Shown here: positions 19,698 to 20,130 of the stretch, in pieces
How positions within the stretch are numbered: the stretch's first letter is position 1
Layout of the letters: each line of letters begins with the position of its first letter
IMG/VR virus record: IMGVR_UViG_3300032285_000284
Span: 1-23,310 of that record
DNA length: 23,310 bases
Strand: one strand, 5' to 3'
Source: a virus
Notes under the pieces: generated by a model
Databases searched by the model: none
What the model was told of the DNA's origin: nothing
What the model saw: the letters and a program-made list of their open reading frames with translations, nothing else
Position numbers and translations under genes: made by a program

Positions 19698-19704
19698 GGG
19701 ACTC

Positions 19705-19735
19705 ACTTTAACAGATAAAATCTGTAGAATGTCAA
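19705..19735 (-). promoter_or_regulatory. Putative sigma70-type promoter with an internal 15-bp dyad
   Basis: On the minus strand an exact TTGACA (19730-19735) is followed by candidate -10 boxes TGTTAA (19708-19713, spacer 16) or TAAAGT (19705-19710, spacer 19). The spacer contains the perfect dyad ACAGAT-TTT-ATCTGT (19711-19725), which could be an operator. Either -10 would start transcription within a few bases of the next ATG. The -10 match is only moderate. Confidence 0.45.
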
Positions 19736-19786
19736 GTGGGGGATATTTTTAGGATTTCCCTCCCCTCCGGGGAAACTCGAATCGAT

Positions 19787-19805
19787 AAACGGGACTGACC
19801 CGCTT
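19787..19805 (-). other. Hairpin after the 10-residue ORF
   Basis: Minus-strand RNA AAGCGGG-UCAGU-CCCGUUU forms a 7-bp stem including one G-U pair, beginning just after the stop of the 10-residue ORF. Only three U's end the stem, so termination would be weak. Further downstream, a second stem GUUUCCC / GGGAAAU (about 19754-19776) can form. Confidence 0.35.
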
Positions 19806-19810
19806 ATGAG

Positions 19811-19843
19811 TTAGCGACGAGCCTTACGACCTTTGCGACGCAT
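19811..19843 (-). CDS. Tiny Lys/Arg-rich ORF (10 residues)
   Basis: The ORF encodes MRRKGRKARR and ends in TAA. GGAG lies six bases before the ATG. Seven of ten residues are Arg or Lys. It shares the core RRKGR with the 11-residue ORF 58 bases upstream, although the codons differ: CGTCGCAAAGGTCGT here versus CGTCGTAAGGGTCGC there, three synonymous third-base changes in five codons. That pattern is expected if the peptide, not the DNA, is kept. It lies after an intrinsic terminator and before a promoter-like box. A role could be nucleic-acid binding, capsid interaction or a leader-type regulatory translation. None is shown. It is too short for ordinary annotation and could still be coincidence. 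Confidence 0.5.
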   Translation of the reverse strand: MRRKGRKARR

Positions 19844-19876
19844 GGTGCGCTCCTAAATTAGAGGGGGTGAATGGTT

Positions 19877-19902
19877 AAAAAGATCCGGCCAAAGCCAGAT
19901 CT
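19877..19902 (-). terminator. Intrinsic (Rho-independent) terminator after the 11-residue ORF
   Basis: On the minus strand AGATCTGGC-TTTG-GCCGGATCT forms a 9-bp stem with a 4-base loop (19881-19902), followed by a U-tract (last stem base plus TTTT, to 19877). One pair is a G-U wobble only in the minus-strand RNA; on the plus strand it would be mismatched, which supports minus-strand function. The stem starts within the stop codon region of the 11-residue ORF, so translation of that ORF could influence folding. Confidence 0.78.
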
Positions 19903-19937
19903 CACTTGCGCTTACCGCGACCCTTACGACGTGCCAT
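19902..19937 (-). CDS. Tiny Lys/Arg-rich ORF (11 residues)
   Basis: The ORF encodes MARRKGRGKRK and ends in TGA. GCGGAGG precedes the ATG with a seven-base spacer, a strong ribosome binding site for so short a frame. Seven of eleven residues are Arg or Lys and two are Gly. The TGA abuts the first base pairs of the terminator stem (19881-19902), the geometry of a translated leader whose ribosome could disturb the hairpin. It shares RRKGR with the neighbouring 10-residue ORF through different codons. It may make a protamine-like or RNA-binding peptide, act only as a cis-acting leader, or be chance. Evidence is the ribosome site, composition and the paired ORF. Confidence 0.55.
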   Translation of the reverse strand: MARRKGRGKRK

Positions 19938-19968
19938 GTGAAGGCCTCCGCTGTTAGAAACGTCCCCA

Positions 19969-20130
19969 TTAAGATCGCTTCATTCCTCTGTTGACTTGGC
20001 GGCTTTGCGGCTGCTTGGTCATAGAGCGAATATTCACAACCTTATACTGTAGATTAGCTGGTTTTGAAAAGCTGTCAACACTGGCTCTTGTCTGGTCCCC
20101 TTTGGGGGCAGTTGAGGGTTGCGCTGGCAT
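19969..20130 (-). CDS. Small basic protein downstream of the portal
   Basis: This protein has 53 residues. Its ATG at 20128-20130 lies one base after the portal stop (TAA C ATG), with AGGT five bases upstream inside the portal's last codons. It begins MPAQPSTAPKGDQTRASVDS, continues FSKPANLQYKVVNIRSMTKQ and ends PQSRQVNRGMKRS. The composition is basic and polar, with a Lys/Arg-rich C-terminus, and it is probably mostly disordered. The coupling to portal and the absence of any other use for the 160 bases make it a credible gene. The function is unknown; a small virion or assembly factor is possible. Confidence 0.7.
   Translation of the reverse strand: MPAQPSTAPKGDQTRASVDSFSKPANLQYKVVNIRSMTKQPQSRQVNRGMKRS

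Follow-up and report, generated by a model that had tools for sequence, protein, structure and literature searches.

The J protein of phiX174 consists of 37 amino acids, the adenovirus core peptide Mu is an example of a DNA-condensing core protein, and the N protein of phage lambda, an arginine-rich RNA-binding protein of ~107 amino acids, binds boxB together with host factors. Fremin et al. 2022 (cited in PMC11323111) reportedly catalogued small genes predicted in phages, which are conserved and too short for standard gene callers. The J protein of the Microviridae (phiX174) is small and basic, is encoded with the capsid genes, and resides inside the capsid, with a role in DNA packaging (PMC11945456); eukaryotic dsDNA viruses encode small basic proteins that are protamine-like or condense DNA in the core (PMC6163548). 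In the literature searched for protamine-like phage peptides, no phage case was found.

The window, that is, the whole stretch of DNA analyzed here, is a lone 23.3-kb IMG/VR record in which every assigned gene lies on the minus strand. The gene order is terminase (at the window end), two small genes, portal, a 53-aa ORF, two micro-genes, and a 161-aa protein (g161), followed 3' by an 81-aa protein (g81), a scaffold-like protein (named by its position), the major capsid protein and the tail genes. The portal protein matches the Pfam family SU10_portal with 36.0 bits, at a cut-off of 30, and in this tailed phage of the SU10 portal type the micro-genes close the terminase–portal block. A Microviridae J-like ssDNA phage context was considered and rejected, given the presence of the terminase and portal genes. 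The PHROGs search produced no match for g161, g81, the scaffold-like protein, g150 or g130, and the same holds for g161 in Pfam and for the capsid protein in a PDB sequence search; the micro-gene peptides are too short for the PHROGs and Pfam searches. A tRNA scan of the window detected none, and there is no Rfam match to the window at the gathering score. The features of the interval are as follows (window coordinates).

19969..20130, minus strand: 53-aa ORF between the portal and the micro-genes, conserved by eye in relatives
19945..19949, minus strand: Shine–Dalgarno sequence of micro-gene B, GGAGG, 7 nt before the ATG
19902..19937, minus strand: micro-gene B, MARRKGRGKRK (11 aa), with homologues at the same position in relatives
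19877..19902, minus strand: hairpin and T-run directly 3' of micro-gene B, terminator-like, by eye
19850..19854, minus strand: Shine–Dalgarno sequence of micro-gene C, AGGAG, 6 nt before the ATG
19811..19843, minus strand: micro-gene C, MRRKGRKARR (10 aa); exact-peptide pattern in 59 IMG/VR stretches
19789..19803, minus strand: hairpin GCGGGTCAGTCCCGT 3' of micro-gene C, by eye; loop TTAGN in most near relatives
19738..19776, minus strand: conserved H-type pseudoknot with an A-rich third loop, from a constrained search across relatives
19730..19735, minus strand: TTGACA, promoter-like -35 abutting the pseudoknot, with a weak -10

The original prediction had described two tiny ORFs here, each with a good ribosome site; they lie at 19902–19937 and 19811–19843 on the minus strand, and both the ORFs and the sites stand as listed. 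It had also pointed to three silent third-position differences in the shared RRKGR core, and the codons indeed read CGT CGT AAG GGT CGC in B and CGT CGC AAA GGT CGT in C, with three differences, each silent. B and C are exactly the two ATG ORFs of the window that combine 8–16 codons, at least 60% K/R and a Shine–Dalgarno match; not one such ORF appeared when the whole window was shuffled 200 times with its dinucleotides preserved. The gap between the portal and the micro-genes is not empty because the 53-aa ORF (19969–20130) fills part of the interval. This ORF has no match in PHROGs or Pfam, and its relative has none in PHROGs; judging by the sequence, its end (..MKRS) may be a remnant of micro-gene A, which begins with MYKSVKRS.. 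in relatives. Among the relatives of the 53-aa ORF, a PANLQYKV-like motif is kept (by eye). At the site after B, the hairpins of several relatives differ in sequence (by eye), and a consensus terminator scan of the window did not list the hairpin and T-run at 19877..19902.

The two micro-genes are real, conserved protein-coding genes: more than 200 other viral contigs have homologues in the corresponding portal–capsid interval. The family was defined as ORFs of 8–16 aa with at least 50% K/R and a Shine–Dalgarno site, located between the portal and the g161–scaffold–capsid block, and the micro-genes of the window conform in size, K/R content, Shine–Dalgarno site and position. A search with the portal protein retrieved 80 IMG/VR loci, three of which end too early to judge. 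By hand count, with L064 and L065 being the two ends of one contig, micro-genes lie just downstream of the portal in 50 of the 77 testable loci and are absent from 27; in L021, they lie ~1.2 kb downstream. Pattern scans, which are blind to the portal and the neighboring genes, recovered 59 IMG/VR stretches with the C-peptide DNA pattern and at least 120 matches to an SD-ATG-..KGRKGRK-stop pattern, for which the chance expectation is <1 by a rough hand estimate. The neighbors were examined for part of the fetched KGRKGRK-pattern loci, and there the portal precedes the micro-genes, which are followed by the 161-aa gene, scaffold and capsid, wherever the contig is long enough; one such locus, L238, has the local sequence context with no blastp match among its neighbors. 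The scan reached deep lineages with capsid identity of 35–42% (L141, L158, L184, L191, L212, L218 and L243). The contigs of L212, L218 and L191, with the same micro-gene and capsids 36–37% identical, are ~62 kb long, compared with the 34–39 kb that is usual in the group. A looser type-A pattern matched 57 loci of the lineage and 50 unrelated contigs; none of the latter carries a similar basic pair, and four of them hold basic ORFs due to chance, none being family-like. The genome collection gave only two matches, both in freshwater MAG contigs that hold the phage interval itself. Across the near-complete relatives scanned, such genes are found at the portal–capsid interval only, and in the distant relatives Mx8, Mx9 and BUCT555, as well as phiEco32, they were not seen.

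Each locus contains one to three copies in tandem, of three types in a constant order: A (MYKSVKRSRRSRRK or MYKKMKRGRKTRR), B (MRRKGRKSKR, MARKARKGRKGRK and similar) and C (MRRKGRKARR). Hybrids exist as well: MYKSMMRMKGRKARR in L020 joins the start of A to the end of C, and MARRKGRKARR in L003 is B fused to C. The 83 distinct peptides are 8–15 residues long, with a net charge of +5 to +8, no D or E, and a composition of 35% R, 30% K and 11% G; within this set, the micro-genes of one locus are at most 400 nt apart. Genes of 10–14 codons fall under the normal length cut-offs, and the original prediction had expected such ORFs to be missed by these. Micro-genes are present in two annotated metagenomic genomes, MW202825 (L252) and MW202753 (L253) from Manatee Spring: both have A and B, both leave them unannotated, and hypothetical proteins are called on the opposite strand across the interval (UOF82412; UOF81572 and UOF81573). 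The family may already be in the catalogue of Fremin et al. 2022.

The pattern of substitutions indicates purifying selection on the peptides. In a nucleotide-level alignment of 30 intervals from the clade of the window, made with the peptides disregarded, type A has a minimum of 9, 5 and 22 changes at the first, second and third codon positions, and type C has 2, 2 and 8 (type B, misaligned there, was left out). For A and C pooled, the one-sided binomial p-value is 3e-5 when the changes are taken as independent, a figure weakened by shared ancestry. The mean heterozygosity is ~0.34 in the spacers and 0.04–0.16 at positions 1 and 2 of A and C. Thus, changes concentrate at the third position while the spacers drift, which argues that the peptide is selected. 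The reciprocal pN/pS values (A in B-pattern loci and B in A-pattern loci) are 0.13–0.49, under a 50% K/R filter that partly conditions the test on composition; the zero pN of the C10 set is uninformative because this set was found by its own peptide. Residues other than K and R (Y2, G, T/S) are also kept over wide DNA divergence. The selection that the original prediction had read from three silent differences is accordingly recovered across relatives, as third-position bias and pN/pS below 0.5.

Frameshifts and stop codons, which were to speak against the prediction if found in both ORFs of related phages, were not seen in relatives that carry the genes; two lineages have no such genes at all. 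These are the clades L042–L045 with L080 and L046–L067, and on the portal tree the pattern of absence requires two changes. The midpoint root, and with it the direction of change, depends on the long branch of L080, the row of which is frameshifted in translation. No tiny replacement was detected in five near-complete genomes of the gene-less clades, so the role of the peptides is either dispensable or met otherwise in these lineages. These genomes also encode other small proteins of basic character, 45–77 aa long, which could do the polycation job instead. Those of 45–58 aa in the gene-less lineages were considered as compensation and rejected, given that they have likely counterparts in the lineages with micro-genes. 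A 75-aa DUF6321 protein and 45–51-aa proteins of PHROGs 2423 and 16028 are encoded in L273, L275, L281 and others.

The micro-genes are accompanied by structured RNA. Of 34 non-redundant sequences, 32 contain the pseudoknot after the last micro-gene (19738–19776 in the window), compared with 17% of mononucleotide shuffles; at a score of at least 11, the shares are 82% and 4%. The set had been selected by a C-run ahead of TTGAC, a choice that favors the second stem. The stems change on both sides (GGAGGGG/CCCCTCC, CGGGGGA/TCCCCCG, GCGGGAC/GTCCCGC); the common parse is not the best one for a few rows (e.g. L007, L147 and L154). This pseudoknot is absent from Rfam. TTGAC lies within a few bases 3' of it, and in most loci the sequence after the pseudoknot is TTGACA; a consensus promoter scan of the window reported no promoter at this site (19730..19735), and the promoter is putative because the -10 in the window is weak. 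Just downstream of TTGACA, there is an inverted repeat, ACAGAT..ATCTGT (19704–19735, minus strand), and at its site relatives have, by eye, a dyad of other sequence (CCGCTAATAGCGG, TGCTGACTGTCAGCA), as an operator or a hairpin would. L034 and L075–L077 have micro-genes and, by eye, no pseudoknot after them; hence, the peptide is the wider feature. A different H-type pseudoknot (GGG..GGCUGCUU..CCC..AAGUGGCC), absent from the window, lies in the A–B spacer of a sister clade. In an alignment of 43 sequences (L133:10876-10953 and 42 other spacers), its 14 pairs are formed in 90% of the cells, and the covariation is 0.223 compared with 0.096 in shuffles and a maximum of 0.130 when slid. It has no Rfam match at the gathering score; the Rfam searches otherwise gave two weak, chance-like matches and one unrelated tRNA in L079.

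Protamine-like, RNA-binding, or capsid or portal roles are all possible for such sequences. The best guess, to which we assign about an even chance, is that the peptides are disordered polycations that neutralize nucleic acid, either as the head is assembled or within the virion, because the genes are located in the head block, the sequence is a pure polycation with nothing foldable in it, and the copy number varies as a dose would. Each micro-gene would yield a disordered polycation of 10–14 residues that binds nucleic acid electrostatically while the head is being assembled; possibly, the peptides are co-packaged and neutralize the DNA phosphates or bridge DNA to the inner surface of the capsid or portal, the dose being set by the one to three near-equivalent copies. 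We infer translation, nucleic acid binding and presence in the virion; the ORFs, their conservation, the purifying selection and the fixed position in the head module are observed, and the copy number of 1–3 and the hybrid peptides are compatible with a dose role.

Regulation through RNA binding ranks second after nucleic acid neutralization and appears unlikely; the peptides would then modulate late expression by binding the flanking hairpins or pseudoknots, host RNA or the ribosome. Structured RNA does adjoin the genes, between A and B in the sister clade and behind the final micro-gene in the window and its relatives, but peptides occur without these pseudoknots in L034, L075–L077 and the deep lineages, so that peptide and RNA element are separable. 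It is a very remote prospect that the ORFs are by-products of conserved RNA with an incidental coding look: the nearby RNA structure is conserved, but the third-position bias, the pN/pS below 0.5, and retention of the peptide where the RNA elements are absent all argue for coding.

Leader peptides had been proposed as well, in which translation of the Lys/Arg codons matters, through attenuation or stalling, and the product does not. Tiny ORFs with good ribosome sites and hairpins 3' of them are what this proposal expects, but it is disfavored and we give it little credence: the promoter-like TTGACA and the conserved pseudoknot intervene between the micro-genes and the next gene, which makes a leader role for that gene unlikely, the copies come in tandems of one to three, and the conservation extends to the residues other than Lys and Arg. 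Improbable, too, is a peptide directed at the host, e.g. one binding ribosomes or nucleoid DNA for host shut-down, with which the composition agrees; the genes are fixed in the head module and not among early genes.

If neutralization is the function, this would be a tailed dsDNA phage lineage with dedicated genome-neutralizing peptides of 8–15 residues, encoded next to the portal by one to three micro-genes in tandem, with pseudoknots between and behind them, that serve as a protamine-like packaging aid and are among the shortest conserved viral genes; this full picture we put forward tentatively, at somewhat less than even probability. A family so short, with codon-level selection and representation in >200 public viral contigs, offers a clean test of the minimum size of a viral gene. 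The phages resemble the phiEco32/SU10-type podoviruses in the SU10_portal match and in the order of terminase, portal, small gene, scaffold and capsid; in phiEco32, a 78-aa gene starts 9 nt after the portal, leaving no room for micro-genes. With lambda N, the likeness is a short basic stretch beside RNA hairpins, and no parallel to boxB and the host factors is claimed here. The core proteins of eukaryotic viruses are likewise polycationic and expected to neutralize packaged DNA, but they are longer, belong to eukaryotic viruses, and the role of the micro-genes is predicted. The J protein shares with the micro-gene peptides the character of a small basic product encoded in the capsid-gene neighborhood, and it acts in the manner proposed for them; J is one longer protein of an ssDNA phage, whereas the micro-genes encode 8–15 aa, are often tandem and belong to tailed dsDNA phages, and no homology is claimed. 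Packaging of the peptides, if it occurs, would give tailed phages a protamine-like device akin to the J protein of the ssDNA phages.
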